Shown here one piece after another: positions 739-17,421 of a stretch of DNA of 64,000 nucleotides (positions within the stretch are counted from its first letter, which is position 1; the number at the start of each line of letters is the position of its first letter). Location: NCBI RefSeq assembly GCF_000403785.1, contig NZ_APHJ01000025.1, positions 1 through 64,000 of the forward strand, given 5' to 3'. Below the pieces are notes generated by a model. That model saw nothing but the letters and a program-made list of their open reading frames with translations. It was not told the origin of the DNA and searched no databases. This stretch comes from Gillisia sp. CAL575 (GTDB lineage Bacteria > Bacteroidota > Bacteroidia > Flavobacteriales > Flavobacteriaceae). Made by a program: the position numbers and the translations under genes.

Positions 739-850
739 ACAATTTAATTTACTTAATAATTATTCTAAGGGCTATTTGAATTTTCATAAATCTAATTAGG
801 GAGTTGCATGAGCTAAAAATTATTGATGTATTTTTTCCTATTTATAAAAG

Positions 851-2114: not shown

Positions 2115-2171
2115 TTTTTAGAACCCTTGTGCTCCCTATTAGGAAATACATCTATGCTTAACCGTTCCTTC

Positions 2172-2278
2172 GGTCCGGGCGTCTTTAAAAACAAAAAATC
2201 TGCTCAGGTGAAAATATCTGGCAGATTTTTATTTTTTTAATCCGCAGCATAGCTGCGCTTCATAGTGGAGTCGGAGGG
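2172..2278. repeat. direct repeat unit B, ending in a copy of the ssrA 3' end
   Basis: The second copy of the ~100-bp unit has a hairpin at 2194-2230 with AAAAATCTGC/GCAGATTTTT arms. On the minus strand it is followed by TTTTTTGTTTTT, a good rho-independent terminator. The unit ends with AGTGGAGTCGGAGGG (2264-2278), identical to the 3' end of the tmRNA gene at 17407-17421. The simplest reading is that this is the original downstream flank and terminator of ssrA, pushed away from ssrA by the intervening island. Confidence 0.65.
2264..2278 (+). repeat. attL-like core, 15-bp copy of the ssrA 3' end
   Basis: AGTGGAGTCGGAGGG is identical to 17407-17421 and in the same orientation. It covers the tmRNA acceptor 3' strand and the start of the T-arm. 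It marks the inferred left limit of the island. Confidence 0.6.
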
Positions 2279-2338
2279 AACGACGATAGTTTCAACTTTC
2301 CAGCATTTATAAGCCATAAGCAGAGTTCTGATTTTATT

Positions 2339-2360
2339 GGTCACCGAATTGGTCTCGCTT
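2339..2360 (+). repeat. 22-bp island-end repeat, left copy
   Basis: A GGTCACCG...GGTCTCGCTT sequence that recurs at 17288-17309 with one A/T difference. It lies 60 bp inside the left core, while the right copy lies 97 bp inside the right core. In the circular form both would flank the joined core in the same orientation, as integrase arm-binding sites do. That role is inferred. Confidence 0.55.
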
Positions 2361-2498
2361 TAACAAAGTTTAACGTTTGAATTGTCTTAATGAGTTTAAA
2401 AGGAAGCAAAACGCGTCAAATTATATTGCGGATGGTTCTATATACTGATCGGATTTAACCATGTCTTCAGGGCGGATATTTGAAGTTTTTAGGTATTC

Positions 2499-2547
2499 CT
2501 TTACACAAAAGTAAAATGTGTAAAGAAAATCTATTTGTCTTTACACA
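2499..2547 (+). promoter_or_regulatory. three TTTACACA boxes before the PhoU-like gene
   Basis: CTTTACACA stands at 2499-2507 and 2539-2547, and its exact reverse complement TGTGTAAAG at 2517-2525. The first two form a 9-bp inverted repeat with a 9-bp spacer. The third runs up to the TTG start of the phoU-like frame. The arrangement could be an operator, or a hairpin at the ribosome-binding region. I know of no regulator with this site. Confidence 0.4.
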
Positions 2548-3081
2548 TTGGAAAGAGTGCACATAAGTAGATTTCTCGTAATCATTAAGATTTCGAGGCT
2601 TTTGAATTTGACTATTGAGCATGAGTATGAGGAGTTTTTGACTTTACAAAGACGGATGGGGGATGATCTACGATTTATAATGGCTCTTGGCAAAATAATA
2701 TATGAACTGAAATATATTAATGACTACGCTTTAGGTATTTCCAGAATTACGGTGGAGTTCGACTTAGCTCCCGATATGAAACTATTGAAGACACTTCGAC
2801 TGAATGAAATGTTTTCTTTTGTTATCTCTATGTTAGAGGATATTCGGGACGTCTACCTTGACAAAGATAGCCAGCGGGCCCATAAGGTGTTTAAGAAAGA
2901 ACGAAAAGAAAATGAAATTAGTTACAACACCAATTCTATTATATCTTATTTACTCAAAAATGAAGGAGATATTATCGAACAATCTTTGTTGCTTTTGAGT
3001 GTTATCGAAAACGTTGAAAGAGTAGGAGACCTAATTACCAATATTGCTCAGAAAATCATCTTTTTTAGAGAGGCTGTATAA
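2548..3081 (+). CDS. PhoU-like phosphate regulator, N-terminally truncated
   Basis: The 177 residues match the PhoU pattern from mid first helical bundle to the end: EYEEFLTLQRRMGDDLRFIMALGKI, then INDYALGI, and near the C-terminus VERVGDLITNIAQKIIFFREA, equivalent to the ERxGDxxxNIAE repeat. PhoU proteins tune Pst transport and PhoR/PhoB signalling in response to phosphate. The family is usually 210-230 residues. Here the first ~45 residues are missing and the start is a weak TTG. No pst or phoBR gene is near. It could be a shortened functional regulator or a decaying gene. It converges with the phosphoesterase operon, which supports a phosphate theme. Confidence 0.65.
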   Translation: MERVHISRFLVIIKISRLLNLTIEHEYEEFLTLQRRMGDDLRFIMALGKIIYELKYINDYALGISRITVEFDLAPDMKLLKTLRLNEMFSFVISMLEDIRDVYLDKDSQRAHKVFKKERKENEISYNTNSIISYLLKNEGDIIEQSLLLLSVIENVERVGDLITNIAQKIIFFREAV

Positions 3082-3154
3082 ATTCCAATTCCAAATTATT
3101 GGTATAATCTCCACTGCCTTTTTTCCTATTCGATGCCCTTCCGAATGATAAAAT

Positions 3155-3553
3155 TTAAACCCCTAGCGGCTCCTCAATAGTTAATGCAGTTTTACTATTA
3201 ATCAGTTTTGTAGCAATTCTACTGAATAGTTCTCCTGCTTTGTCGGTAAATATTACTTTTATCCCGTAATGTCGTGCTTCTTCAACCAACACCCAGTCGG
3301 GATATTTTCCGCATAATAAATACTCTGTTTCAGGTGTTATTTCAGGCTGTAAATTCGCTTCCCACTTATTCAAATTGTCTTTATAATTTATTGGGAAAAA
3401 TTCACCGGAAAGAACAACATTCTTAGTTTGCAATAAACTATTATTCTCCTTTGAAAAACCCTTCAGAAATAATGGTGCTGGAGCTTCCTGAAAAAACAGT
3501 TTTTTAATACTGATTTTATCTAAGATTTGTAGGTTAATCCTGTTCAATTTCAT
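3155..3553 (-). CDS. small protein with a BRCT-like segment
   Basis: This is a 132-residue soluble protein, last in the minus-strand operon, 128 bp after the glycerophosphodiesterase gene. Residues of about 45-115 look like a BRCT fold: VVLSGEF, then TEYLLCGKYPDWVLVEEARHYGIKVIF, the pattern of a strand, a hydrophobic 'lvcG...kv..A...gI.ii' core and a following helix. BRCT domains bind phosphopeptides or DNA ends, but stand-alone bacterial copies outside DNA ligase and PolIII epsilon have no settled role. The resemblance is by eye and moderate. Confidence 0.45.
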   Translation of the reverse strand: MKLNRINLQILDKISIKKLFFQEAPAPLFLKGFSKENNSLLQTKNVVLSGEFFPINYKDNLNKWEANLQPEITPETEYLLCGKYPDWVLVEEARHYGIKVIFTDKAGELFSRIATKLINSKTALTIEEPLGV

Positions 3554-3681
3554 TGCTTAATCCTTATTTATTTTACTGATGTAAATTTATAAAATAGGGG
3601 GGAAAGCGGTATTACATGTATATTATGAAAATATAAAATCACTGTTCATAATTTCAGCTGCGACCAAATAGCTTTTGACTT

Positions 3682-4620
3682 TTAGTCAACATTCTTTCTC
3701 ATTTCAATTACCTTTTCAGGATAATCAGATATAATACCGTCTACATTAAGATCTATCATTTTCCGGATGTCCTCTTTTTCATTAACTGTCCACGGAATTA
3801 ATTCCATTTCCATATAATTGATTGAATCCACAAACTGCTCATCTATTACTTGGTTAAAATTTGGACTATAGATTTCAGGGATGAATTGTAAAACGGATAA
3901 ATTTTGATCAATACCTTCACGGTACACGAGGTATGCAAGATTAGTTTCAGGATATTCTTCATTCATCAAATTAAGGATGTTAGGGTCAAAGGATTGAATA
4001 TAAATCTTATCTGAAATGCCTTTTTCTTCAATAATTTCCATTACCAGGTTTCCGAATTCTTCAGGCTGAGGCTGATATTTACCGTAGTCAGCTTCAACCG
4101 ACTTTAATTCAATATTGTATTTCACTGGTGGCAGGCCTTCAGCGGCAATGAATGTCTCTACGCTGTCAATAACTTCAGAAAGTAAGGGTTTATAGGTCTT
4201 GATTTTTTGTTGGTCAGGAAAAAGAAAGTTACCCCTTGATCCTACATCAAACCGCCGGATACTGTCATAGTTCATTTCATATAAATTGTAGGAACGCTCA
4301 TCTGTTTTTTTTATGGAATCGCCGGATGGGTTATTAACAAACAGGGAGGACATATAGGGTTCATGAGAAACTACTACCTGTTTGTCTTTTGAAATAACTA
4401 CATCCAATTCTAAAACATCCACCCCTTTTTTCACAGCACTAATGAATGCTGGAATGCTGTTTTCAGGAAAATTTCCCCGATCTCCTCTATGTCCCTGAAC
4501 CTGTACAATAGAAGTAAGAGAAACTTCATTGGTCCCTAAATCATTTTTTTCTAAATCTGATTTACAGGAATATAATCCAGTAAATAATAAACAAGTGAGG
4601 GTTATTGGTAATGTTTTCAT
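3682..4620 (-). CDS. glycerophosphodiester phosphodiesterase lipoprotein
   Basis: 312 residues. A signal peptide ends in the lipobox LYSC (Cys19), so the mature enzyme is probably membrane-anchored and periplasmic or surface-exposed. The GDPD signature is complete: HRG at 44-46, PENS at 52-55, LELDV at 70-74 and the second catalytic His in VVSHEP near 86. A later LNLMNEEYP and a C-terminal ISDYPE segment also fit. It hydrolyses glycerophosphodiesters to glycerol-3-phosphate and an alcohol. It lies 75 bp after the phosphoesterase gene on the same strand and probably completes a pathway that frees phosphate or glycerophosphate from imported or surface-bound organophosphates. Confidence 0.9.
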   Translation of the reverse strand: MKTLPITLTCLLFTGLYSCKSDLEKNDLGTNEVSLTSIVQVQGHRGDRGNFPENSIPAFISAVKKGVDVLELDVVISKDKQVVVSHEPYMSSLFVNNPSGDSIKKTDERSYNLYEMNYDSIRRFDVGSRGNFLFPDQQKIKTYKPLLSEVIDSVETFIAAEGLPPVKYNIELKSVEADYGKYQPQPEEFGNLVMEIIEEKGISDKIYIQSFDPNILNLMNEEYPETNLAYLVYREGIDQNLSVLQFIPEIYSPNFNQVIDEQFVDSINYMEMELIPWTVNEKEDIRKMIDLNVDGIISDYPEKVIEMRKNVD

Positions 4621-4695
4621 GCTGTAAATTTTGATTAATAATTAAAGCCTGCTTAGCAAAAATACTGAAGCAGGCCTTAAAAAATGAAAATGGAT

Positions 4696-6270
4696 TTATT
4701 TTGCTTCTTCCAGTCTATAGCTGCTGGTCGCCGTATGAACCTTTCCAAACATATCTTTGGCTTTTATTTCAATAGAATGTTCTCCCGTTGGCAGGTTCGT
4801 CGGGATATTACCACGCCATAAATGCTCGCTATTTATAGGGTTGGAAGATCTCCTTCCGGACATAAGTTCCTCTGTTGTATCCCATTCGTAAACCATTTCC
4901 ACATAAGAAGGATCAGGCTCCACAACATAATCCATCTCTTTCCATTCCCCCTCATCTATCCGGTACATTACTTCATCACCTTCGGTTCCCATAAAGAAAT
5001 TAGCATAGATTCCTGCCTTAGTTCTTCTGCCTTTGGCAACTACTTTTGGAACAAAAACTTCCATTTGATAATCTGCCGGTTTCCCTGCAACTTTATAATC
5101 TATATTGTAATTATTCCCGGTGAAATTAATAAATGCATAGCCTTTTGGAGTTCCATCTCTCATAGTGGAAACCGGAACATTGGCTTCATCTAATTTTCCT
5201 GAATACCAATCTCCGGATGTTGTACCAACATTGTAATGATGATGTGGTCTATTCTGATGCCATCCTTCTTCTTTTCCGAAGAAATCCTGCCGTTGGATAT
5301 GGGTATGGGCAGAAAGTGAAAGTGTGTTGGGGAAATCTTTTAAAAGCTCAAATAGCCTTTCTCTGTCTTCATCACGAAAAGTATCTACATCACCGGGTTC
5401 GCTTAATGGAATATGCATTGCTATAACTACCAAATGATCTTTAGGAACATTTTTTAAGTCGTTTTCTATAAACTGAAGTTGATCTTCCCGAAAACCTCCC
5501 CAGTAACTTTCCCCATCTCTGGGATCTGGATATAATACATCATCCAAAACCAGAAAATGTACCTTCCCATAATTGAATGCATAATTGGCAGGACCAAAAT
5601 GGGCTTCATAGGTTTCATCTGATAGGGAATCTTTTTCAACATCAAAATTTATATCGTGATTTCCCAACAAATTATACCAGGGAATACCAACTCTTTTCAC
5701 AGCTTTTATATACGGATTAAATAGGTCCAGATCATTCCCCACCAAATCGCCTAGGCTTAATCCAAAAGGAACATTTTCTATTCCTTCAACTTCAGCTACA
5801 ATTCCCTCAGCAAAAAAATCTACTTCTTGTTGAGTATACGGCTGTGGATCACCAAAAATAAGGGCAGTAAAATCTTCTTTTTCTTCAGAAGGAATTAAAG
5901 CAAAATTAACCGACTTCGGCAAATTGCCAGTGGGGGAGATACCTTTAAATTTTAATTCGGGTGATCCCCCTGGTTTATAAATATAGAAGAATTGCGGCAG
6001 GTTATCTTCATTTTTACCGATATTGTATCCTGAAGGTTTTATGATTGCTATTATATTATCTTTACCAACCTGTAATTCGTATTTTCCTTCCTGATTTGTG
6101 AGAACAACCTCAATTCCATTTGTAACAGCAATTTCCGAAATTCCATTTTCTCGGCGGTCCTTTTTTCCATTTTGATTGCTATCCTCATAAACATAACCCC
6201 AGGCTTTTTCCTGGGAAGAAAGATTCAGGCTTAGTAAACCAAGTATAGTAAATGCAAGTATTTTCTTCAT
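4696..6270 (-). CDS. secreted calcineurin-like phosphoesterase with N- and C-terminal accessory domains
   Basis: 524 residues with an N-terminal signal peptide (cleavage near residue 19). Residues 23-125 form a beta-sandwich-like N-domain (MetallophosN type). The two-metal phosphoesterase core follows: GDPQ at 140-143, GDLVGND at 174-180, GNHD at 203-206, His in AMHIPL near 286, and HTH at 322-324. All metal ligands are visible. A C-terminal region from about 380 matches the beta-rich MetallophosC type. The enzyme cleaves phosphomono- or diesters outside the inner membrane. It starts 17 bp after susD, so it is almost certainly co-transcribed with the SusC/SusD pair. The exact substrate is unknown. 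Confidence 0.9.
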   Translation of the reverse strand: MKKILAFTILGLLSLNLSSQEKAWGYVYEDSNQNGKKDRRENGISEIAVTNGIEVVLTNQEGKYELQVGKDNIIAIIKPSGYNIGKNEDNLPQFFYIYKPGGSPELKFKGISPTGNLPKSVNFALIPSEEKEDFTALIFGDPQPYTQQEVDFFAEGIVAEVEGIENVPFGLSLGDLVGNDLDLFNPYIKAVKRVGIPWYNLLGNHDINFDVEKDSLSDETYEAHFGPANYAFNYGKVHFLVLDDVLYPDPRDGESYWGGFREDQLQFIENDLKNVPKDHLVVIAMHIPLSEPGDVDTFRDEDRERLFELLKDFPNTLSLSAHTHIQRQDFFGKEEGWHQNRPHHHYNVGTTSGDWYSGKLDEANVPVSTMRDGTPKGYAFINFTGNNYNIDYKVAGKPADYQMEVFVPKVVAKGRRTKAGIYANFFMGTEGDEVMYRIDEGEWKEMDYVVEPDPSYVEMVYEWDTTEELMSGRRSSNPINSEHLWRGNIPTNLPTGEHSIEIKAKDMFGKVHTATSSYRLEEAK

Positions 6271-6287
6271 TATTGTTTTTTTATTTA

Positions 6288-7727
6288 CTAATTATCCCAC
6301 CAAACTTTGGTGTTTATATTATCACTCCCACCAAGCATTTCAACTGCTTCCAGGTAATTTTCCCGGTTATTAACCTGGATGTCCTGAGGATAAGGAAATC
6401 TAACCGGCATTTTGGCATCATTTACCATAGCATCAGTTTTAGGTAATTCAGGCAAGCCTGTTCTTCTATATTCAAACCACTGTTGATAATCAGTAAAGTA
6501 AAGTGCGAAATATTTTTGAAGCATAATTCGCTCTAGTGTCCCGTTATACTGAGCCAGTTCATTTTCAAAATAATCTTCAGGAACTTCTGTCTCCATTTGT
6601 TCTATTGCAGCATTTACTCCATTTAAATAATGGGTTTCAGCATCTCCTGTGTAGCCTTTTTGTGCCAACTCCGCTTTTATAAACTCAACCTCAGCATAGG
6701 TGAGCAAAAATATTTGCATAGGATTTTCTACCTGTTCTATATTAAAGGTAGATGCATTAAATTCAAATTGAGACTCCGGACCCTCGTATGCACTGGGAAT
6801 TCCTTTGTAGCCGATTGGATTGTTATCCAAATCAGTAGCCATAGTACCTATAACAGATCTTCTTGGGTCTTCAAGCTCATTTAAGTTATCTACAAAAAAC
6901 TCTGTTAACTTTACACTTAACCTGAAATCCTGGGGCCTACCCCAGGGTGATACGTTGGGAGTCACCCCGGTAACCTGTAAAATTGCAGACTCTTCTGTAT
7001 TCTCAAAAACCGGATACGAAGTCGGATTGTTGATCATTGTGGTTAATTGCTGAAAGGTATTTAATTCTACCTGTCCTGAAACTCTTAACAATAATCGCAT
7101 CCGTAAGGAATTAGTAAACTTTTGCCATTTACTAACATCGTTTTGAAAAAGGATATCTTCAGCATATGGCATAGTAACCTCAGTATCATAAAGCTCATTT
7201 GCACGTTCCAGATTTGCCAGAATGGTTTCATAAATAAAAGGCTGTGAATCAAAAGCTGGATAAAGATTTCCACTTTCTCCCTGCACTGCCTCGGTCATAG
7301 GAACGGGGCCAAAAATATCGGTTAAATTAGAATATACCCAAGCGTCTAATGTTAGTGCAATTGCTTCATAATTTACATCCCCGGCTTCTTCCGCAGCAGT
7401 TCTCATCTCGTTAATATTATTCAACCATCGATAATAATTGTACCAGGATGAATTTCCTATATTAGGACTTACGTCATAGCGGTGCAATCCTCCAGACACA
7501 CTTGGAAACGGTAATGAAACCTGCATAAGATCAAAAGTGATGCTTGAGCTGCGGTTGGCATTATGTGTTGCTAATCCGTAAATAATTGGATTAATTAGGG
7601 TTCCCGGACTTATTGCTGATATTCGATTGGGGTCTTCGTTAATTTCTTCGAAATTAGAAGTACAGGCAAAAAATAGAAAGCTTGCTAAAATAGCAGTACT
7701 TAGATATTTTAAATTTTTCATTTTCAT
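6288..7727 (-). CDS. SusD/RagB-type nutrient-binding lipoprotein (SusD-like_2 class)
   Basis: 479 residues, with a lipoprotein signal ending in FFAC (Cys22). The sequence after it (EEINEDPNRISAISPGTLINPIIYGLA) and the region NYYRWLNNINEMRTAAEE...DAWVYSNLTDIFGPVPMTEA are typical of the SusD_2 class. These are lids on the SusC channel that capture ligand at the cell surface. The start is 4 bp after the susC stop, giving tight coupling. With a phosphoesterase and a GDPD downstream instead of glycoside hydrolases, the ligand is more likely a phosphorylated organic compound than a glycan. That is an inference from context. Confidence 0.92.
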   Translation of the reverse strand: MKMKNLKYLSTAILASFLFFACTSNFEEINEDPNRISAISPGTLINPIIYGLATHNANRSSSITFDLMQVSLPFPSVSGGLHRYDVSPNIGNSSWYNYYRWLNNINEMRTAAEEAGDVNYEAIALTLDAWVYSNLTDIFGPVPMTEAVQGESGNLYPAFDSQPFIYETILANLERANELYDTEVTMPYAEDILFQNDVSKWQKFTNSLRMRLLLRVSGQVELNTFQQLTTMINNPTSYPVFENTEESAILQVTGVTPNVSPWGRPQDFRLSVKLTEFFVDNLNELEDPRRSVIGTMATDLDNNPIGYKGIPSAYEGPESQFEFNASTFNIEQVENPMQIFLLTYAEVEFIKAELAQKGYTGDAETHYLNGVNAAIEQMETEVPEDYFENELAQYNGTLERIMLQKYFALYFTDYQQWFEYRRTGLPELPKTDAMVNDAKMPVRFPYPQDIQVNNRENYLEAVEMLGGSDNINTKVWWDN

Positions 7728-7731
7728 TTTA

Positions 7732-10700
7732 TTATAAATTCACTTGTAAATTAAATCCATAGGTTGTTGGAGAAGGCATTTGCCCCATCTCCACTCCGGG
7801 TAAAATGGTATCGCCATTTAAAGCAGCTGTTTCAGGATCGTATATTGGAAAATCTGAGAATACTGCCAGATTTCTACCAAACAGAGAAACATTTATATTC
7901 TGGATGCTGCTATTTTGAAACCACTGCTTCGGGAATTTATATTGTAAACTCACTTCCCTCAGTTTTAAATAGGACGCGTCAAATGAATTGGATTCTACAT
8001 TGGCCCTTCTGTAAAAACGATTATACCAATCCGGTGTGATGGCTTCAGTAGTATTTGGCGAGAAAGAACCATCCTCGTTTAGAACTACACCTTCTCCTAC
8101 GATCACACCTTCTTCCCTGCCTCTAAAAGTGGATTTCAATTTTCCCTGCTGTACCAATTTATGGTGAGTTTGAGAGTAAATAATTCCCCCATATTGACCA
8201 TCAAGTAAAACGTTTAGGGAAATATTCTTATAATTAAAATTATTTTGTAAACCTCCTCGCCAATCCGGACTAGCATCCCCTATATACATAATATCATCTG
8301 GATAAGCCGGCAGACCTCCATCATCATAAACTATTTCTCCTTCAGGAGAACGGACGAATCCTGCTCCATATATCGCAGTTGCAGTACCGCCAACTTTGGC
8401 AATGATTCGTGCCTGTCCTCCTGAACCTATTTCCTGTTGCCCATCTATACCATCGGCCAGTTCTAACACTTTATTCCAATTTCTTGCCCAAGTGAGATTA
8501 GTTGTCCATTTAAATTTATCAGTATTGATGATCTTTGCATTTACTGCTAGTTCTATTCCGCGATTTCTGACCTCTCCAGAATTTAATACTCCCGAACTGT
8601 ATCCTGTGGTAATATCTAATGGTACCGAAATAATCTGGTTTTTAGTGGAGGTTTGATAGACCGTCGCATCAAGGTTAATCCTGTTATTAAGAAGTCGGGC
8701 TTCCACTCCTGTTTCATAACTGGTTGTGATTTCCGGCTTAAAATTGGCATTGTATAGATTGGTAGGCACCACCGCTGAGCTGGGGAATGCATTCTGGCTA
8801 TAATATTTGCTTGTTCTATAAGGATCAGTATCGTTCCCAACCTGAGCATAAGAGAATCGATATTTCAAATAATCTACAGGGCCTGAGAAATTAAAAATTT
8901 CAGAAAGAATTATACTTGTATTTACTGAAGGGTAAAAGAATGAATTGTTTTGGGTAGGCAGAGTACTTGACCAGTCATTTCGACCTGTTAGGTCTAGAAA
9001 AACTCTATCTTTAAATGAAAAAGATGCCAAACCATAAAAACTGTTTATCTTTTTATTTCTATCATAAGTATTAACGATTGGATTATTAACTCCATTTGCA
9101 AGTTTGTAAACATTTGGTACTACCAACCCATCTACTGATGCATCGGTCCGTCGGTATTGATAATCCATTGCATTTCCACCTCCTGAAATTGAATAAGAAA
9201 TGTTTTTGCTGATTTCATCTTCATAAGTTAGCAGGAAATCAGCGTTAACTTCCTGTTTCCAAATATCCTGTGTTTTATAATATCCACGGGAATATCTGTT
9301 AATGCTATAGGGACGTCTTTGTTCCCTATCCTGAAAGTAAGTGTTTAAGGATGTTCTCAACATCAAATTTAATTTTGGTGCCAGTTGAACATTAGAAAAA
9401 ATACTTCCTACCAATTGATTACTGGCCAATGGATTTGTGGCTTCGTAGGCAATTAAATATGGATTATCAATATAAGAGCTAAAAGGTTGAATTTGCTGAA
9501 GATTTTCCTGTCCATCCTGCCAAATAGGTCTCAACCAATCAAGATTTACATTTGGATTCTGGAATATCATAAAGTATGCAATAGATCCATTATTGTAACC
9601 GGTTCCAGGAAGGTTATCGCTACTTCTATTATTATAATTTAAGGTTGATCCCACCTCTATGTTTTCAGAAACTTTATACCTGGCGTTCACTGAAGCGGTA
9701 ATACGTTCAAAACCTGTATTAGGCATAATCCATTCGTTGAGCTGATGCCCAACGGAAACCCGCATCGAACCATTCTCACCACCCCCCTGAAGGGTCACGT
9801 TATTATTAGTGGTAAAACCAGTACGCCAGTAATCCTTTCGGTTATCCTTATTAGGTCTCCATAACTGGCGCTCAAGGGACTGCCCGCCAACTTCTGGATC
9901 ATATTGAAAGTAATATTGTCCATCAAAACGAGGCCCCCAGGCACTACTGGTTCCACCGGTACTATTTCCGTCTTCAGAACCTCCATATGAATAGTAGGGT
10001 TCACCGGCATCATTAAAAGATTTACCCGTTCCCTGTCCATATTCATATTGAAAATCCGGCCAACGTTGGATCACATCTAGGGTGGTACTGGTATTATATG
10101 AAATTCCTAAACTTTTTTGATCTGTACCGGTTTTGGTGGTAATTATCAATGCGCCATTTGCGGCCCGACTCCCATAAAGTGCGGTAGCTCCCGGCCCTTT
10201 TAAAACCGAAACACTTTCTATATCTTCAAGATTAAGGTCTGAAATTCCATTTCCGAAATCTACAGGCGAATCGCCTCCCATATATGCACTGGAAGATCCT
10301 GAAGTAGTCATTTCAGTATTGATTGGTACCCCATCAACTACAATAAGTGCGTAGTTACCATTAGGATTTAGTGAATTATTACCACGCAATGTTATTTGTT
10401 GCGAATTGATTGGACCTGAACCGGTTGAAACAATATTTAAACCGGATACTTTTCCTTTTAAACCTGCGGACCAGTTATTGGGAACCGTCTGGGAAAGATT
10501 CTCAGCGGCAACAGTTTCCTGTGAGAAACCTAATCTTTTTTCTTCTCTTTTTATTCCTAAGGCTGTAACGACAACCTCATTCAGAGAATTAAGATTTTCG
10601 TTTAGTTGTACTTCAATAAAATCTTCATTTTTTACTGCAATTTCCCTGGTTTCAAAGCCCATAAAGGAAATTTCCAGAACTGGAGCTTGACTTGTAACAG

Positions 10701-10956
10701 AAAGACTAAATTCTCCATCGAAATTTGTTTGGGTACCATTATTTGTTCCCTTTATAACTACCGTAGCTCCTGGAAGTGGCAGTCCTTCTCCATCTAAGAC
10801 TCTTCCCCGAACAACCTGCTGATTATTTTGGAAGGAAATTGGATTCATCTCGTTTATTTTAAACGCATATGCCTGAGGTAAGCTTAAAAGAAAGCAGATT
10901 ATAAACACCTGCTTTTTTAATAAAAATCTGATTAAAAATTGTATGTTAGTATTCAT
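7732..10956 (-). CDS. SusC/RagA-type TonB-dependent outer-membrane transporter
   Basis: 1074 residues. A signal peptide covers about 1-32. A carboxypeptidase-D-regulatory-like domain (VVRGRVLDGEGLPLPGATVVIKGT) spans about 47-130. The TonB box region is LNEVVVTALG, the plug is at about 135-275 (KVSGLNIV, LIVVDGVPI, DIESVSVLKGPGATALYGSRAANGALIITTK), and a 22-strand beta-barrel runs to the C-terminus. It imports large ligands across the outer membrane using TonB energy. It is the first gene of the operon. The length is normal for the family and no frameshift is seen. Confidence 0.95.
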   Translation of the reverse strand: MNTNIQFLIRFLLKKQVFIICFLLSLPQAYAFKINEMNPISFQNNQQVVRGRVLDGEGLPLPGATVVIKGTNNGTQTNFDGEFSLSVTSQAPVLEISFMGFETREIAVKNEDFIEVQLNENLNSLNEVVVTALGIKREEKRLGFSQETVAAENLSQTVPNNWSAGLKGKVSGLNIVSTGSGPINSQQITLRGNNSLNPNGNYALIVVDGVPINTEMTTSGSSSAYMGGDSPVDFGNGISDLNLEDIESVSVLKGPGATALYGSRAANGALIITTKTGTDQKSLGISYNTSTTLDVIQRWPDFQYEYGQGTGKSFNDAGEPYYSYGGSEDGNSTGGTSSAWGPRFDGQYYFQYDPEVGGQSLERQLWRPNKDNRKDYWRTGFTTNNNVTLQGGGENGSMRVSVGHQLNEWIMPNTGFERITASVNARYKVSENIEVGSTLNYNNRSSDNLPGTGYNNGSIAYFMIFQNPNVNLDWLRPIWQDGQENLQQIQPFSSYIDNPYLIAYEATNPLASNQLVGSIFSNVQLAPKLNLMLRTSLNTYFQDREQRRPYSINRYSRGYYKTQDIWKQEVNADFLLTYEDEISKNISYSISGGGNAMDYQYRRTDASVDGLVVPNVYKLANGVNNPIVNTYDRNKKINSFYGLASFSFKDRVFLDLTGRNDWSSTLPTQNNSFFYPSVNTSIILSEIFNFSGPVDYLKYRFSYAQVGNDTDPYRTSKYYSQNAFPSSAVVPTNLYNANFKPEITTSYETGVEARLLNNRINLDATVYQTSTKNQIISVPLDITTGYSSGVLNSGEVRNRGIELAVNAKIINTDKFKWTTNLTWARNWNKVLELADGIDGQQEIGSGGQARIIAKVGGTATAIYGAGFVRSPEGEIVYDDGGLPAYPDDIMYIGDASPDWRGGLQNNFNYKNISLNVLLDGQYGGIIYSQTHHKLVQQGKLKSTFRGREEGVIVGEGVVLNEDGSFSPNTTEAITPDWYNRFYRRANVESNSFDASYLKLREVSLQYKFPKQWFQNSSIQNINVSLFGRNLAVFSDFPIYDPETAALNGDTILPGVEMGQMPSPTTYGFNLQVNL

Positions 10957-11002
10957 TACAATTTGGCTATAAAATTAATTTTTTTAGTCTAAGTTTTGGC
11001 TA

Positions 11003-11037
11003 AGCCCATTCTGGTGCAACAGAATGGGCTGTTTTTT
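11003..11037 (+). terminator. strong hairpin upstream of susC, T-run on the plus strand
   Basis: The 11-bp arms AGCCCATTCTG (11003-11013) and CAGAATGGGCT (11020-11030) are followed on the plus strand by GTTTTTTT. Read as a plus-strand terminator it has no obvious gene upstream. Read on the minus strand it lies only 47 bp before the susC start, within the likely 5' leader. It may be a relic, an antisense terminator or a leader structure. Confidence 0.55.
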
Positions 11038-11698
11038 TGGCTAATTCATGGCTAGAGATCTAATCTTATATGTAGGGGTTTTAATTATGCTGTAGGTTCT
11101 TTGTAATCGTAGATTTTAATTTTAAAATGCTTTTACAAATAAAAGGGATTACAATGGAGTACCTTCCTTTTCTTACTTTAAGAATGGTTTAAGTAAACAT
11201 TAAATCCAGGAATAAAGGGGTTTTCCAGGGTTTTTAGCGCTGTTTTGATAGAATATTATTATATAATTGAGGTATTTCCTCCTCAAAATAAAATCTCATA
11301 ACCTTAACATAAAGGATGGGGTACAAAGTTTAAGCTATAGTTAAATTTTTATGCCTTAATACCTTAACTATTTTAATAAAAACTATTTACTTATTGTATC
11401 CGGAGCGTTTTCCATTTTTCCCTTCTTTTTCTTGCTTCTGAATATTTTTCCTTGCATTCAATTCATTTACTTCCCGCAGTGCCGTCGCTGTTACCATTTT
11501 CCGTTGCATCCTTTACGGAATTTAGAATTAGGATAGGCCGTAGGTTCTCCCTTTCTTCAAAAGCACAAGTATTTTCAGGCCGGCTAACTTCTTAATTCCG
11601 TTTCTTCTTATTACGCTACTTCTAGTCACTTTGTAGAAACTATAAATTTTACATTATTAGCCAAGATTACCACACAAACTCCAGTAATCAGTGAAGGG
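11038..11698. other. 660-bp stretch without a clear gene
   Basis: This AT-rich DNA lies between susC and the small frame at 11699. It must contain the promoter of the susCD operon, but I cannot fix its elements. The only coding trace is a 40-codon minus-strand frame listed separately. Confidence 0.5.
11387..11509 (-). CDS. possible 40-residue basic peptide, likely a gene remnant
   Basis: A minus-strand frame from ATG 11509 to TAA 11387 encodes a very polar, lysine- and asparagine-rich chain (MQRKMVTATALREVNELNARK, then repeated EK/GK). It resembles the tail of a larger charged protein such as a mobilization or plasmid protein, but I recognise no family. A stop lies just before the ATG. Probably a fragment. 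Confidence 0.25.
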   Translation of the reverse strand: MQRKMVTATALREVNELNARKNIQKQEKEGKNGKRSGYNK

Positions 11699-11908
11699 AT
11701 GTATGCTTATTTTGACAATAATGCAAGTTACTTTTTAACTGGTGCCAAATATGATGGAGTAGCTGATATGATCCAGTACTCAGCTGATATATCTTTCAGT
11801 ACTTTATATCGAGGTGTTATTGAGGATATACAGGATAGAACATTCTATATCAGAAATAAAAACATTTCTGATATAGAAACTCAATTAAGCAATCCGAAAT
11901 ACAATTAA
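11699..11908 (+). CDS. hypothetical short protein, possibly a 5'-truncated gene
   Basis: The 69 residues (MYAYFDNNASYFLTGAKYDGVADMIQYSADISFSTLYRGVIEDIQ...) have normal protein composition. The open frame continues upstream of the ATG (FVETINFTLLAKITTQTPVISEG) without a start codon, which suggests a lost N-terminus. It precedes the M50-like gene by 87 bp on the same strand. I recognise no domain. Confidence 0.35.
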   Translation: MYAYFDNNASYFLTGAKYDGVADMIQYSADISFSTLYRGVIEDIQDRTFYIRNKNISDIETQLSNPKYN

Positions 11909-11995
11909 AAAAAATCAATATTGAGTTATGGAAGTTCGAAAAAGCTTCCATAACTTTTCTATTCTTAAAATGTGATTACAATTAGACAACAATAA

Positions 11996-12694
11996 ATGGT
12001 TAGAAAATTTTTAAAATTTGTTTTCGCTTTCATTCTATTTGTTATAATTGGAACACACACCCATGAATTAGGTCATCTGTTTGTAGCTGAACTATTAGGA
12101 TATAAAACTACCTTACATTTCGCTAGTATTGACTATGATAGTTCCAAATTGAATAATGAATTGGATAGTATTTATATTCAAAATAAAATTGAAATTGAAG
12201 CTGGTAAATATTTTGAGGAGAAGGAGTTGTTCGAAAGAAAATTAGAGAAATTAAATTATGATAGTTTCCTAGTTACCTTAGGTGGCCCATTACAGACAAT
12301 ACTTACTGGTTTTTTTGGCTTATTATTGATTTCAACACGATCGAAAAAAATTAAAAAGAGTGGTTTTAGTTCAATCGACTGGATCTCAGTTTTTCTATCT
12401 TTATTCTGGCTTCGTGAAATTTATGTTTTATTTCATTCCTTTTTGTATGAAATGGTTTTTAAAGAAGGTAATTATTTCGGGGGTGATGAGAGATACATTT
12501 CAGAATACTTCGGTTTACACCCTAGCGTAGTTCCTATTGGCCTTGCTTTGATTGGATTTGCTGTAGCTACTTATATACTATTTTACTATATCCCTAAAAA
12601 ATATCAATCCGTATTTATAATGTCAGGTTGCTTGGGAGGTATTGTGGGTATTGCTGTATGGTATTTTCTTTTGGGTCCAATACTTTTACCTTAA
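11996..12694 (+). CDS. M50-like (site-2-protease type) membrane metallopeptidase
   Basis: 232 residues. The first membrane helix ends in HTHELGH, putting the zinc motif HExxH at 23-27 in the membrane, as in M50 proteases. A loop of about 45 residues follows, then VTLGGPLQTILTGFFGLLL near 95-115 (the GGP turn facing the active site), and then FGGDERYISEYFGL near 160-173, whose Asp could be the third ligand. Two more helices close the protein. Such enzymes cut membrane-anchored substrates or small inner-membrane proteins. It is shorter than typical M50 proteins and has no PDZ or CBS domain. The substrate is unknown, and it sits in the island's accessory part. Confidence 0.65.
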   Translation: MVRKFLKFVFAFILFVIIGTHTHELGHLFVAELLGYKTTLHFASIDYDSSKLNNELDSIYIQNKIEIEAGKYFEEKELFERKLEKLNYDSFLVTLGGPLQTILTGFFGLLLISTRSKKIKKSGFSSIDWISVFLSLFWLREIYVLFHSFLYEMVFKEGNYFGGDERYISEYFGLHPSVVPIGLALIGFAVATYILFYYIPKKYQSVFIMSGCLGGIVGIAVWYFLLGPILLP

Positions 12695-12734
12695 TATTAT
12701 TATCAATTATTAGTAGTATATATATAAAACTACA

Positions 12735-12830
12735 TTAAAAACCCAAATAGTTTTCCGTGAAATAGGTAATAGGTTTTTCCCAAACTAATTGATATAATTC
12801 TTCTCTGGTAAATTCTATTTTGATAGCCAT
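12735..12830 (-). pseudogene. N-terminal fragment of a TREELYxLVW-type DNA-binding protein
   Basis: A 31-codon frame encodes MAIKIEFTREELYQLVWEKP followed by a divergent tail. The TREELY(E/Q)LVW..P opening is, to my knowledge, the conserved start of a family of small HTH-like proteins that continue with a GLSDVGLAK-type helix. That continuation is absent here, so I read it as a truncated copy. Confidence 0.4.
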
Positions 12831-13096
12831 GATAATCTACTTTTTAAATTAATTACATGCTAGTTAAATTTTGATAAGTAATTTAGATGAGAATTTAATA
12901 TTTTTACTATTTAGTTGATGATCGCGGTTAAGGAGCGGCTAACACCTAGTAGATGTACGTGTCTGCAACTGCTTATAAGAACAGCGTAATCTGATATGAA
13001 TCTCCAAGCAAAATCTCGGTATTTCTGGAATTTGTTTCAGTATTTTTATTTCGACTAAGTTTACAATGTATCCGTGTCATCTATAAAACCGACTAC

Positions 13097-14182
13097 TTAA
13101 GAATTTTCTAACACCTCCATCAACCTAAAATTAAGATACAGTTTTTCTTTTCCAACCTTTTCTGAGGTTAAGAATCCCGCTCCTTCTAATTCATTTAAAT
13201 AATTTCCTACAGTTTTTGGGGTTCCTAAATCAGCGTCTATTAAATACTGACGTTTTGTGTAGGGAAGTTTAAAGAGTATTTCTATTAAATCTTTAGAATA
13301 AACTTTTGGTAGATCCGACTTTACTTCTTCAGTAAAGGTTATCATCAATTGATTTACTTGATTTAATAAAGTTAATCCCTTATTTGCTGTAAATAAGATC
13401 ATTTCTAGCATATATAAGATCCATTCTTCCCAATCTCCCTTTTCGGTTACATTACGTAATTTATTGTAGTATTCTTTTTTATTTTTAATGATATATTCAC
13501 TTAGATATATTGCAGGAATATCTAAAAGTTTTTCAATTTTTAAATAGAGGAGAAGTAGAATACGTCCTGTTCGCCCATTTCCATCAGTAAATGGATGTAT
13601 CGCTTCAAACTGATAGTGGATTAAAGCCATTTTTATTAATGGATCAATGGTATCTCTTTCATTGATAAATTTTTCAAGATTAGCTAATTTATCTCTCAGA
13701 ATGGTTTCTCCCGAAGGCGGAGTATATATGATTTCCCCTTCTGTGTTTTTAAGAGTAGTGCCAGGCGTAGTTCTTATACCAGCTGTGTTTTTCTTTATAC
13801 TTTGTACAATCTCAATACACAAATTGGTAGTGATAAAAGGTCTTTTTTCAATAGACTCTAAGCCTTGCCATAATGCCTCTTTATAACTTATAACCTCCTT
13901 TGTAGCGGAGTTGTTATATTTTTTATCTGCAACAATAGCTTTATACAAATCGTCATTTGTTGTGATTATATTTTCTATTTCAGAACTCGCTTTGGCTTCT
14001 TGTAAATGGATAGTATCTAGAAACAATGTTGGATTAGGTAAGCTGATGAGCATACCATTCAATTGTGCTAATGCTCTACTGGCTTCGATTGTTTTTCGAA
14101 GCACTTTGGTGGTTTCTAATATACCATCTGGTGGTAGTAAGGGTAAATTATTATATGGCTTACTTCTATTAAAATTTGTCAT
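13097..14182 (-). CDS. Fic family AMP-transferase with C-terminal winged helix
   Basis: 361 residues. The Fic_N-type N-terminus carries the inhibitory motif SSEIEN at 66-71, matching (S/T)xxxE(G/N), the class II (N-terminal) arrangement. The Fic core holds the full catalytic motif HPFTDGNGRTGR at 196-207. Residues of about 290-360 look like a winged helix (KRQYLIDADLGTPKTVGNYLNELEGAGFL). Fic enzymes usually transfer AMP from ATP to protein hydroxyls. With both the active motif and the inhibitory Glu intact it should be a self-restrained enzyme. No separate antitoxin is adjacent. The winged helix and the repeated palindromes upstream suggest autoregulation. Confidence 0.9.
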   Translation of the reverse strand: MTNFNRSKPYNNLPLLPPDGILETTKVLRKTIEASRALAQLNGMLISLPNPTLFLDTIHLQEAKASSEIENIITTNDDLYKAIVADKKYNNSATKEVISYKEALWQGLESIEKRPFITTNLCIEIVQSIKKNTAGIRTTPGTTLKNTEGEIIYTPPSGETILRDKLANLEKFINERDTIDPLIKMALIHYQFEAIHPFTDGNGRTGRILLLLYLKIEKLLDIPAIYLSEYIIKNKKEYYNKLRNVTEKGDWEEWILYMLEMILFTANKGLTLLNQVNQLMITFTEEVKSDLPKVYSKDLIEILFKLPYTKRQYLIDADLGTPKTVGNYLNELEGAGFLTSEKVGKEKLYLNFRLMEVLENS

Positions 14183-14192
14183 TAGTATAAGA

Positions 14193-14280
14193 GTAAAATT
14201 TACTTTCGTTCCCTAAACAAGGGTAAATATAGCTAAAATTTACCTTCGTTTGGATGATAGGAGTAAATATTACCTTTGTT
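14193..14280 (-). promoter_or_regulatory. three 18-bp repeats with palindromic cores upstream of fic
   Basis: GTAAAATTTACTTTCGTT (14193-14210), CTAAAATTTACCTTCGTT (14233-14250) and GTAAATATTACCTTTGTT (14263-14280) share a palindromic GTAAAWWTTAC core and a YTTYGTT tail. The offsets are 40 and 30 bp. The nearest site starts 10 bp from the fic start. This looks like a multi-site operator, probably bound by the Fic protein's own winged helix or by an unlinked regulator. Confidence 0.6.
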
Positions 14281-15108
14281 GAAACTTGAAACCCGCTCCA
14301 GCACATTTCCACTCCACTACATTTCGGGAAAAGCGCTTCACTAAAATGTCTTGAACCCAATTCCAAAATCCTGATGAACCATTTAAGTATCAATTTCTAT
14401 TTTGATGCAATAGGGTAGAAGGAAGATTCTTTTTTCGTCTTGATTTTGCAATTGAGTTCGCTAGATCCTGCTGCATTGGAAATTTATATTTTCAATATTT
14501 AGTGATCAATATTATCTGAAACTTATTCTCTTCAAAGTCTCTCGGTACCTTTCCAATATAAAATAAAAAATTCAAAATTAAACGGACTGCATAAACCACG
14601 TTGTTATTTATAAGTCCTTTATTAATTCTGAATTTTTAAAATCAGCTATTGGAAAGGTAACAGCGAGGGCTCTATAGGAAGTAAATTAGATATGCAGACT
14701 TTATAGAATTTTGATAACGTTAATGAAGTTTATAACAATGTTATTTTCCTTTTCTGGAAAGGAAAACGCTCAAGATATAAAAAGTAAATGTTGGATTTTA
14801 ATATTCCAAATAGCTGCAAAATACCACAAATAATATGGCTTGAAAATTGACGTTTTTAAGTGAGTTTTTAGATTGTTTGCAGTTTTTAAGGTTCTCATTA
14901 AAAGAGCGATAGCGAATAAAAATGAGTAGCAAGAGGGTAACACGCTACGCGATGTTATAACACTCATTTTTGTATGCAAATACCTAATAATCAGTTAATT
15001 GTGACGATAAAATAATTTAGGTATGTTTTCATTTTTGCGACAAAATTAGAGAAACAGTCCGCCTAATACTATAAACACTGGTATGAGTTATCCTAATTTC
15101 CTAAAATA
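14281..15108. other. about 830 bp without a supported gene
   Basis: AT-rich sequence with many stops in all frames. It holds one long imperfect inverted repeat (14541-14666, listed separately), a short minus-strand frame that is not protein-like, and the promoter region of the mobilization gene at 15109. Confidence 0.5.
14541..14666. repeat. long imperfect inverted repeat, MITE-like
   Basis: The left arm (14541-14582) and right arm (14622-14666) are largely complementary: TACCTTTCCAATA against TATTGGAAAGGTAA, and AAAAAATTCAAAATTAA against TTAATTCTGAATTTTTA, flanked by CTCGG and GCGAG. The loop is about 40 bp with a small CGGAC/GTCC pairing of its own. There are no coding frames. It could be a miniature transposable element or an RNA with a long stem. 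Confidence 0.4.
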
Positions 15109-15444
15109 ATGACCATGAGTAAGAGATTTTCAAGAATTAATTTTCATGCCCAAACCGTGGAACGGTTTAAAAAATATGCCATACAGAATGATACCAATTA
15201 CACCGAAACAATGGAAGCTATTCTGGACTTTTTTGAGAAGTATCGTATCAATCCCTTTGTGCCATTTGATGATTCCGTTCAGAGTTTGAAAGTGCTGATA
15301 AATAAAAGAATGGATGCAGTAGAAAGTATCTTGAGAAAAATGGAAGCGGAGCAAACCATACCAACCAAACAAATGTTGGATCGGTTGTTTAAATGGGAAG
15401 AAAGTAAAAAGCCATTAATTCTTGAGAAAAAACAAAATAATTAA
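15109..15444 (+). CDS. BfmA/BtgA-type mobilization protein
   Basis: 111 residues. It opens with KRFSRINFHAQTVERFKKYA, a ribbon-helix-helix-like start, followed by YTETMEAILDFFEKY and VQSLKVLINKRMDAVESILRKMEAEQTIPTKQMLDRLF. This order is what I know from the BfmA/BtgA family of Bacteroidota mobilizable elements, which act as accessory relaxosome proteins at oriT. The relaxase gene that normally follows is absent; 445 bp of non-coding DNA come next. The element therefore seems to have lost its relaxase. ATG at 15109 is used, but Met3 is equally possible. Confidence 0.75.
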   Translation: MTMSKRFSRINFHAQTVERFKKYAIQNDTNYTETMEAILDFFEKYRINPFVPFDDSVQSLKVLINKRMDAVESILRKMEAEQTIPTKQMLDRLFKWEESKKPLILEKKQNN

Positions 15445-15888
15445 AGTTTTAAAAATTTGTAAAACACTACAAAACAGACTAAATTTCACGAAATGGATTA
15501 ACCATTTGCAAACGGAAATTTAAGGCTTTTTAAGCGAGTTTTTCTTTTCTAAAGTACAAATACGGGTTGAAGAAGAAAAGCTTTAAATTTTGAGCTAAAA
15601 ATTGCTTTAAAAATGACATCTTTAACTAACTCATTCCATACTTTTTTCAGTTTACCAAATAAATAAAAAAATAATGGCCTGCCTGCCCTTCGGTTTTATA
15701 TGTTTATTTGTTTTATATAGTTTATATTTAGATACCAGTGCTTGTCCACTGATGGGACGGTGCCGGTACAGGACTTGTACACACATGGGACAGTAGCGTA
15801 CCATTGCCAGTCCAAATAGGGTACAACTGATGGGACTACTAATTGAATTCAAATAGTTTCAAATTAAATGATTAACATGAGCTAATTT
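15445..15888. other. non-coding stretch between mobilization and integrase genes
   Basis: 444 bp with no supported frame, including the three 18-bp repeats at 15741-15836. It occupies the place where a relaxase gene or an oriT would be expected. Confidence 0.5.
15741..15836 (+). repeat. three 18-bp GATGGGAC repeats, possible oriT or integrase arm sites
   Basis: CTTGTCCACTGATGGGAC (15741-15758), CTTGTACACACATGGGAC (15774-15791) and GGGTACAACTGATGGGAC (15819-15836) repeat in the same orientation at 33- and 45-bp offsets. The surrounding DNA is GC-richer than its neighbours. The place between a mobilization gene and the integrase 3' end suggests protein-binding iterons. Confidence 0.5.
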
Positions 15889-17148
15889 TTACTTTTTGGC
15901 ATTCTTTTTATTGGTAATGTTTTTTTCTGCTTTTTCCGCTAATTTTATTTTCAGTTCATTCATATCATCACTGATTTTTCGATCTACGATTTTTGCATAA
16001 TGTTGTGTTGTTCTCAAATCTTTGTGTCCAAGCATTTTGCTAACAGATTCTATAGGAACTCCATTAGTAAGAGTAATGGTAGTTGCAAAGGTGTGTCTGG
16101 CAAGATGAGTATTAAGCGGTTTGGATATTCCGCACATTACAGCGATTTCTTTTAAAAAAGCATTGGATTTCTGATTACTTAAAACTGGTAGTACGCAACT
16201 TCCAGCTTTTACTTCGGGATGGTCTTTATATTGTTCAATTATTTTTTCAGCTATAGGAAGTAGGGGAATGCTACTTAAAGATTTCGTTTTTGTTCTCTTA
16301 ATGCGTATCCAGTTATCGCCGTCGATTCCTTTTGTGATATCTGCGCTGCTAAGTTTCTTCACGTCAGAATAAGCGAGCCCAGTGTAACAACTGAAGACAA
16401 ACATGTCTCTGACCAGTTTTAAACGATCTAAATGAAGGTCCTTATCAATTAATTTCTGGACTTCTTCTTCATTTAGGTATTCGCGTTCCACCGCATCAAA
16501 CTGAACTTTGTAATTGTAAAAAGGATCTCGATCCATCCACTGATTTGCTAAGGCAATACGAATGATCTTTTTAAAATTGTTCACATATTTCAATGCTGAA
16601 TTATGATTACACTCTCTTTTGGTTTTTAAAAAATATTCGAATTTTGTGATGAACTGATGGTCTATATCTTTCATTCGATAATCATCAGCTTTATATCTTT
16701 CATTTAAAAATTGCTCGACGTGATTATAACATGTCCAATAACGTTTTGCGGTGCTTTTAGAAATACTTTTACCGGAAAGCCGATCCATTTGTTCATTATG
16801 TTCCTTAAAGATCTCTAAAGTCATTTTGGATTGTTGTTTGGTCTCGCCTTTCAATTCTTTTATCATTCTGGAAGCGGTAATAGGTTCTTCATTATCTGAT
16901 AATACCTGATGAATTTTATTAAGCTTGTGGCGAATATTGTTGATGTGGGTATTGATTTCTTTTTCAATAGCATTATTGCCCATCACTTTTTCCATTTTCA
17001 CATTCCAAAATTCGGATTGGATTCTACGGGAAATACTGTGTTCCTTTCTTTTTCTGTTGACGGTAAGCCTTAGATATATTGGCAATAAGCCGCGTTTATC
17101 TATCTTTTTATTAACGGTGTGAAAGTGGGTGTGAAAATCAGTTTTCAT
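15889..17148 (-). CDS. tyrosine recombinase (integrase) of the Bacteroidota element type
   Basis: About 419 residues from ATG 17148. The frame is open to 17247, but the family's arm-binding domain begins at MKTDFHTHFHTVNKKIDKRGLLPIYLRL, so the inner start is preferred. Order: arm-type DNA-binding domain, SAM-like core-binding domain, catalytic domain. The catalytic His-x-x-Arg is in NTHLARHTFATT, and the later His and Tyr in MLGHKDLRTTQHYAKI. The first catalytic Arg position reads YTGLAYSDV, with Ala where other families have Arg. This is familiar from Bacteroidota integrases such as IntDOT. It sits 260 bp from ssrA, oriented away from it, as integrases beside their attachment site often are. 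Confidence 0.92.
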   Translation of the reverse strand: MKTDFHTHFHTVNKKIDKRGLLPIYLRLTVNRKRKEHSISRRIQSEFWNVKMEKVMGNNAIEKEINTHINNIRHKLNKIHQVLSDNEEPITASRMIKELKGETKQQSKMTLEIFKEHNEQMDRLSGKSISKSTAKRYWTCYNHVEQFLNERYKADDYRMKDIDHQFITKFEYFLKTKRECNHNSALKYVNNFKKIIRIALANQWMDRDPFYNYKVQFDAVEREYLNEEEVQKLIDKDLHLDRLKLVRDMFVFSCYTGLAYSDVKKLSSADITKGIDGDNWIRIKRTKTKSLSSIPLLPIAEKIIEQYKDHPEVKAGSCVLPVLSNQKSNAFLKEIAVMCGISKPLNTHLARHTFATTITLTNGVPIESVSKMLGHKDLRTTQHYAKIVDRKISDDMNELKIKLAEKAEKNITNKKNAKK

Positions 17149-17256
17149 AATTTTAAAAAATTTAGGTCTCGATTGGTTACTGAAAGTAGCTAAAAAGAGA
17201 ATACGAATGAAAACTTTAACTTTCCCTAAGGAATTGAAAAACAGCATTTTGTGAGC

Positions 17257-17309
17257 TTAGCGAGACCTATTTTTTAAAAATAAAATAGGTCACCGTATTG
17301 GTCTCGCTT
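17257..17309 (+). repeat. right island-end repeats: direct copy plus inverted copy
   Basis: 17288-17309 repeats 2339-2360 with one mismatch. Its GGTCTCGCT end is also present inverted at 17259-17267 (AGCGAGACC), and between them is the palindrome CCTATTTT/AAAATAGG. Three copies of one short word around a palindrome beside the integrase start fit integrase or excisionase binding sites. Inference only. Confidence 0.5.
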
Positions 17310-17351
17310 AGTGGGCATTTATATGATATTAAACGGTATCAATAAAAATGA

Positions 17352-17391
17352 AAAACCCCGTAAATCCTAGGATTCCGGGGTTTTTGATACC
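17352..17391 (-). terminator. hairpin downstream of ssrA
   Basis: Arms AAAAACCCCG and CGGGGTTTTT enclose a CCTAGG-containing loop. It lies just past the ssrA 3' end. On the inferred history this terminator belongs to the island end, while the older ssrA terminator is at 2194-2230. Confidence 0.75.
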
Positions 17392-17406
17392 GATTATTAA
17401 GTAAAA

Positions 17407-17421
17407 AGTGGAGTCGGAGGG
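17407..17421 (+). repeat. attR-like core inside the ssrA 3' end
   Basis: The 15 bp are identical to 2264-2278. They cover the acceptor 3' strand and the first T-arm bases of tmRNA, so insertion leaves the RNA gene intact. Confidence 0.6.

Follow-up and report, generated by a model that had tools for sequence, protein, structure and literature searches.

Integrative mobilizable elements with BfmA/BtgA proteins are known from Bacteroidota. Genomic islands integrated in tRNA and tmRNA genes, as collected by Islander, have the integrase next to the target, restore the target gene and leave a displaced fragment of it in direct orientation at the far end, and tmRNA is a preferred target (PMC4383910). 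In a related bacterium, Riemerella anatipestifer, a small island, the 10K genomic island, lies behind a tRNA gene, and both its excision and its integration were demonstrated by experiment (PMC6764341). Phosphate-induced SusCD clusters with phosphodiesterases, the Pus clusters, have been published for Flavobacterium (PMC8115612). The window analyzed here is a 64,000-bp stretch of Gillisia sp. CAL575 (NZ_APHJ01000025.1, positions 1 to 64,000; G000:C24:1-64000), from a genome assembly of 3.64 Mb in 53 contigs. Its segment 2264..17421 is a 15.1-kb genomic island placed in the 3' end of the tmRNA gene ssrA by a tyrosine integrase. The best explanation of the locus as a whole, which we hold with good confidence, is an ssrA island with a cargo of SusC, SusD, phosphoesterase and GDPD genes that abuts an older array of structured units.

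The target gene ssrA (17408..17807, minus strand; ARAGORN and Rfam RF00023) encodes the tag GENNYALAA. Its 15-bp end, AGTGGAGTCGGAGGG, forms the ssrA-side core (17407..17421) and recurs exactly at the far side (2264..2278), the match covering 15 bases with 0 more leftward. The two cores are 15,143 bp apart, and in 64 kb a copy of the core on the same strand would be expected by chance only ~1e-5 times. The ssrA 3' end is restored by the island's own last 15 bp, and the displaced 15-bp end is left at the far side. Just after the restored end, the island carries a terminator-like hairpin (17351..17385), read from the sequence. An arm-type repeat, GGTCACCG(A/T)ATTGGTCTCGCTT, is located inside each limit on the plus strand (2339..2360 and 17288..17309; 21/22 identical), and extra copies of GGTCTCG occur near the ssrA-side repeat at 17165 (plus) and 17257 (minus). 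The repeats are putative arm sites of the integrase, which is encoded at 15889..17247 (minus strand) and has the Pfam domains Arm-DNA-bind_5, Phage_int_SAM_5 and Phage_integrase. An excised circle would carry the joined core reading ...CCCTCCGACTCCAC... with both arms. Three features by which islands in tRNA-type genes are recognized were found: an intact target with a displaced 3' fragment in direct orientation, a tyrosine integrase inside, and an uninterrupted target in relatives. The original prediction, made from the window alone, had set the limits at 2264 and 17421 on the basis of the core, the inner repeat and the integrase, and its coordinates were right.

Our same-genus comparison set comprised 16 genomes, and ssrA could be located in 13 of them. 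In nearly all of the 13, homology does not go beyond the end of the tmRNA, after which the sequences differ. Four genomes (G001, G002, G003 and G008) have an uninterrupted ssrA that is directly followed by a unit of ~160 bp, and a native, non-mobile operon was rejected as an explanation because of these uninterrupted sites. It had been proposed that an uninterrupted ssrA followed by the hairpin of 2194-2230 in close relatives would prove the limits. Such an arrangement is present in G002, where a hairpin of the same kind lies directly behind the gene. In G003, the uninterrupted ssrA is followed by TATGAAGCG, just as in the far flank in the window, the first nine bases being identical. The hairpin of 2194-2230 itself is part of the first ~160-bp unit and lies outside the island. 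In G007, the same unit that lies beyond the far limit in the window is parted from ssrA by a different island of ~26 kb. Furthermore, the far ~115 bp of the island (2264..2379) are conserved in two other genomes, with 82% identity in an 8.5-kb element of Flavivirga (L166) and 75% in G162 (L119), and both matches start at the core.

A scan of named genomes identified 26 loci with relatives of the integrase (55-87% identity), in genera that include Salinimicrobium, Christiangramia, Salegentibacter, Zunongwangia, Psychroflexus, Winogradskyella and Flavivirga. The tmRNA end lies 161-257 bp ahead of the integrase match in 24 of them. The two exceptions are L149, where the core is preceded by other sequence, and L171, whose integrase lies on a 12.9-kb contig and is preceded by 8.6 kb that show no tmRNA. 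A terminator-like hairpin of the same type is present right behind ssrA in 24/24 related integrase flanks, and genome G009 has the same integrase behind ssrA (75% identical, with one stop). Judged by sequence, the island is one of a family of elements that are specific for ssrA and differ in their cargo. The cargo of this family is exchangeable, and the hairpin is brought along with the restored ssrA end in each of the 24 flanks. A prophage was considered and rejected, as the 29 phage records that match the integrase all have less than 60% identity, the best of those listed having 38%. In L149, around position 9740, an integrase of the same kind stands behind the core that follows non-ssrA sequence; this is probably a second island, i.e., an accretion of islands.

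Islands in ssrA are as such already known, and what is unusual is the cargo of this one; in comparison with the general features given for tRNA/tmRNA islands, nothing essential differs (PMC4383910). The 10K island of R. anatipestifer, as described, has tRNA-Arg as its target and an attachment site of 53 bp, in contrast to ssrA and a 15-bp core here (PMC6764341).

The cargo genes, which encode SusC, SusD, phosphoesterase and GDPD, are closely packed on the minus strand and are separated by 4, 17 and 75 bp. The first gene (7732..10956) encodes a SusC/RagA TonB-linked outer membrane protein (TIGR04056, 621 bits) and the second (6288..7727) a SusD-like lipoprotein of the SusD-like_2 type (PF12771, 464 bits), whose relatives in the PDB are SusD homologues. 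They are followed by a secreted calcineurin-like phosphoesterase (4696..6270) with MetallophosN, Metallophos and MetallophosC domains, and by a GDPD lipoprotein (3682..4620; PF03009, E 5e-34). The phosphoesterase motifs FGDPQ, SLGDL, GNHD, HIP and SAHTH, which we take to be metal-site motifs, are invariant in 10/10 aligned homologues. A PDB sequence search gave no relative of this enzyme. Scans of the sequence for promoters (65 promoter-like sites, 61.3 by chance) and terminators (8 terminator-like sites, 10.9 by chance) were uninformative.

A similar arrangement, with SusCD next to phosphodiesterases, is described for PUSI and PUSII of Flavobacterium johnsoniae (PMC8115612). These clusters agree with the earlier statement that phosphate-responsive SusCD-like systems are known in Flavobacteria. 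The enzymes differ, since PUSI has pf00149 and pf16670 whereas the island has MetallophosN/C and GDPD (PMC8115612). In the proposed mechanism, SusD would bind and SusC would import a compound that bears phosphodiesters, for instance glycerophosphodiesters or phosphoglycans, which the two exported enzymes would cut to phosphate or phosphate esters. Phosphodiester uptake thus appears to be the likeliest role of the operon, and it would mean that an uptake operon of the organic-phosphorus type can sit in an ssrA island.

Relatives of the phosphoesterase (E 1e-60 or better) were found in 8/120 family genomes and in 4/16 genus genomes, with the own genome counted in both. In nine other genomes, we inspected the stretches around the phosphoesterase gene: SusD adjoins it in 7/9 and GDPD in 5/9, neither PhoU nor the BRCT-like gene occurs with it (0/9 each), and ssrA is absent from the ~20 kb seen around the operon in 8/9. 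By these sequence comparisons, SusC-SusD-phosphoesterase(-GDPD) is an older module that occurs in other genomes, mostly without ssrA nearby. The original prediction had drawn one operon of SusC, SusD, phosphoesterase, GDPD and a BRCT-like protein. The first four genes stand as a block, but the last one (3155..3553, minus strand) is a weak LigA-BRCT-like call (end of the LigA profile, E 3.7e-4, no Pfam match) outside the conserved operon. A plasmid origin of the phosphoesterase was rejected, with three plasmid records at no more than 29% identity. The Gillisia genome encodes a second phosphoesterase, 37% identical, near another SusC-like gene (G000:C20:427045-428553, L076). Genome G004 has a partial second copy of phosphoesterase and GDPD (L067, G004 C2:1228000-1247900), ~8 kb from an integrase beside tRNA-Arg.

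The island operon differs from its relatives in its regulatory surroundings. FecR and/or an ECF-type sigma factor adjoin the operon in 6/6 genomes with an intact SusC region, FecR being found by Pfam in five (G004, G005, G045, G068, G131) and the sigma factor also in five (G004, G005, G028, G068, G131). Domain and relaxase scans of the island covered 12 open reading frames (ORFs); no match to sigma factor or FecR was obtained among these, in a search that covered the island and not regulators acting from other genome positions. Of the Pus clusters, PUSI is described with an ECF sigma factor and PUSII with a FecR-like protein, regulators that are absent from the island (PMC8115612). The region upstream of SusC (10950..11048) is 75% identical to L066 1667-1770, and the homology to G004 stops at about the stop codon of FecR. 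In the island SusC, the first domain starts at residue 49, vs residues 120-133 in five of the six genomes and 65 in G028, and the N-terminal STN domain found by Pfam in G004 and G131 was not found. Since the neighboring sigma/FecR genes were lost, the island operon must be controlled otherwise.

Two features were added to the original prediction: the ~160-bp tandem units just beyond the far limit, and a BfmA/BtgA family mobilization protein (15109..15444, plus strand; NF041200, 60.1 bits at a cut-off of 24). The gene for the latter adjoins the integrase also in L166 and L167. Like the integrative mobilizable elements of Bacteroidota, the island thus has an integrase and a BfmA/BtgA gene, but differs from them by having no recognized relaxase. 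The BfmA/BtgA gene indicates that it is probably a mobilizable element. Because of the missing relaxase and the fragmentary backbone, this element is probably now decayed; it possibly lost the relaxase or was mobilized in trans. Non-coding backbone stretches at 14607..14957 recur in other ssrA islands, with L148, L161-L167 and L172 matched by blastn, and the conserved non-coding part ahead of BfmA (14910-14957) is a candidate transfer origin region. The backbone is present twice, with a second, inverted copy at 11385..11602 that has 77% identity to L148 just behind its integrase and forms the inverted repeats I1/I2 with 14653-14804. Between the copies are genes for a weak M50-peptidase-like membrane protein (11996..12694, plus strand; Pfam E 0.043, below the cut-off) and a Fic-family protein (13097..14182, minus strand; Fic, Fic_N and SoFic-like_C) with a 46% identical relative in L166.

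Several observations weigh against an ssrA island with a phosphorus-type cargo. SusD, phosphoesterase and GDPD were found in 0/26 of the related integrase loci, where coverage behind the integrase reached 10 kb at best and stayed below 5 kb in six loci. The sequences analyzed gave no direct sign of excision or transfer of the island, and no relaxase was recognized among the 12 ORFs scanned. The substrate of the operon, its control by phosphate and phosphate scavenging in particular are what we infer from the genes. The PDB relatives of the SusD-like_2 protein include BT_2263, a peptide importer. The SusD domains given for the published PusD1/2 are pf07980/pf14322, vs SusD-like_2 in the island (PMC8115612). 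The original prediction had regarded relatives with the operon at the same place, lacking the repeat or integrase, as evidence against itself, and G004 comes close to this: its operon is 8 kb from ssrA, inverted, and has only an integrase remnant beside it. The operon may therefore have reached that site by another route.

A composite origin has about an even chance: an old ssrA element with integrase, BfmA and Fic genes would have been joined by a second related element and by a separately arrived operon. The inverted backbone copies at 11385-11602 and 14607-14804 suggest a composite of two related elements, and the GC content is 37% in the operon vs 32% in the integrase-Fic part. Operon copies without nearby ssrA in other genomes, and the partial second copy near tRNA-Arg in G004, are also consistent with separate arrival. 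On the other hand, both island ends still match one element family, so the island may now move as a single unit. Use of the operon for carbon or phosphoglycans, e.g., teichoic-acid-like polymers, instead of phosphorus scavenging is rather unlikely. GDPD and phosphoesterase can strip glycerophosphate side groups, which counts in favor of such a role. SusCD loci are described as serving mostly glycans, but the six of six Pus SusCD clusters lie with phosphatases, phosphodiesterases or related genes (PMC8115612), and domain scans recognized no carbohydrate enzyme in the island operon.

A self-contained, functional mobile unit for phosphorus scavenging, in which PhoU regulates the operon, is very improbable. 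Such a unit with its own PhoU had been suggested by the original prediction, and the presence of PhoU, phosphoesterase, GDPD and SusCD inside one island agrees with it. The prediction was also correct in calling PhoU truncated: the gene at the far end of the island (2548..3081, plus strand, opposite to the operon; PF01895) covers positions 53-207 of the 212 of TIGR02135, scores 94.4 bits against a cut-off of 130.25, and has lost ~52 N-terminal residues. The single unit itself does not hold up, given this truncation, the failure of PhoU and BRCT-like genes to accompany the operon elsewhere, the loss of the sigma/FecR genes, the different genes carried by related elements, and an intact two-domain PhoU on the same contig (C24:112926-113492). 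The island fragment is 45% identical to the latter, and a fresh copy of the host phoU was rejected for this reason. We thus return to an ssrA island whose cargo is an older SusC-SusD-phosphoesterase-GDPD module.

At its far end, this island would abut an older array of ~160-bp structured units. Unit 1 (2101..2264, minus strand) scores 167.7 bits with model R1, built from nine same-genus units only, and 110.1 bits with a broader model R2, with a fold z of -5.0. Unit 2 (1950..2100, minus strand) is degenerate (R1 69.9 bits at 1959-2100, R2 54 bits). Model R1 gave 16 matches above 90 bits in 9/16 genus genomes. In eight of these nine, units are downstream of ssrA, directly or past an insert, and in the assembly of the ninth, G012, no ssrA was found. 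In the family set of 249 genomes, R1 matched 35 at E 1e-8 and R2 matched 59 at E 1e-6, the latter count being partly circular because most of the 35 R2 sequences (33 of 50 matches, with near-duplicates and partials left out, plus two) came from the genomes then searched. In the phylum set (296 genomes), R2 matched three, of which one lies outside the family (52.7 bits) and is also beside tmRNA.

Many of the units adjoin RNA genes. Among 54 distinct loci, which include 20 extra loci hand-picked from matches above 60 bits, 36 have their start no more than 3 nt from where an RNA gene ends (tmRNA in 28, tRNA-Ser(UGA) in five and tRNA-Ala(GGC) in three). The other 18 do not abut an RNA gene: three have ssrA upstream beyond an insert, one is one unit away from tRNA-Ser, and 14 are other cases. 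Gaps and unit ends were compared in 40 rows, in which the unit was matched over its full length and lay no more than 3 nt from an RNA gene. The gap is 0 in 34 of these rows, and the end of the unit copies the last 15 nt of the gene with at least 12 matches in 28 and with fewer in 12. The end match is 12.5 to the own gene vs 11.2 to same-type ends of other genomes (tmRNA), a modest excess only. Tandem units occur in differing order in G003 and G007, and inserts separate units in G007 and G012. Genome G137 has a cassette-like row (L179 1131-10238): ssrA and a unit are followed by 4.4 kb of unrelated genes and by a second unit with 97% identity to the first, and a third unit comes after a further 4.2 kb.

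Covariation indicates that the fold of the units is conserved. Of 50 units, 45 passed the filters for length and duplicates. In an alignment of 35 units, 89.0% of cells pair vs 71.9% in shuffles, and 32/36 pairs have changes on both sides. The covariation score is 0.538 vs 0.218 in shuffles (0/500 reach 0.538) and at most 0.149 in slid versions, where the tested structure is favored over the slid controls because it was drawn from the same alignment, and the shuffle test is inflated by the relatedness of the sequences. G-U cells outnumber A-C cells (60 vs 28), which favors folding of the ssrA-sense strand. The unit contains a hairpin like that of an intrinsic terminator, and the fold runs ~50 nt beyond it.

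These properties allow two explanations. The units may well be non-mobile and of an ordinary kind, serving ssrA and a few tRNAs as structured 3' trailers or terminators, an explanation that we place somewhat below even. The terminator-like hairpin and the gap of 0 to the gene end in most rows count in its favor, as does the excess of G-U cells, which is expected if the sense strand folds. However, the last bases of a unit usually repeat the gene end, and units occur in tandem in differing order and beyond islands, and fold past the terminator hairpin. Alternatively, and tentatively, the units could be structured mini-elements, a new and non-autonomous family that occupies the 3' ends of ssrA, tRNA-Ser(UGA) and tRNA-Ala(GGC). 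Because their sequence drifts and the fold is kept, they may recombine via the folded strand, as the attC sites of integrons do, or ssrA integrases may move them in trans. If they are mini-elements, the units would lay down rows of attachment sites on which islands accumulate cassette-like, as suggested by the spacing in G137, and the 2-kb length and integrase filters of Islander would have hidden them. The 178-bp tandem repeats with rtT RNA at E. coli tyrT, each with the 3' end of the gene, resemble the units in length, tandem arrangement and position behind an RNA gene, and differ in the genes and bacterial family concerned.

The units matter more than the island, since a covarying fold of ~160 nt accompanies three RNA genes across many genera; they would be either a new family of RNA trailers or minimal mobile elements of a new kind. 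No Rfam match at the gathering score was obtained in the window and 12 further unit loci, with sub-threshold matches only. In the literature on ssrA/tRNA tandem repeats or structured RNAs, no earlier description of the units in Flavobacteria was found, as judged from search results and with general structured-RNA surveys not combed. Small GIY-YIG-like ORFs, read by eye, are located directly behind ssrA in G004 (L029 ~5990-6260) and G006 (L006). As movers of the units, GIY-YIG genes led nowhere: in the own genome, the fetched stretch contained a tRNA at 1/6 GIY-YIG loci (L143, tRNA-Arg). Finally, the left flank of the window (300-740) holds the remnant of a regulator gene, the C-terminal part of a helix-turn-helix (HTH) protein whose intact version is present in G009 (L022 11869-13347); in the window, the gene is broken.

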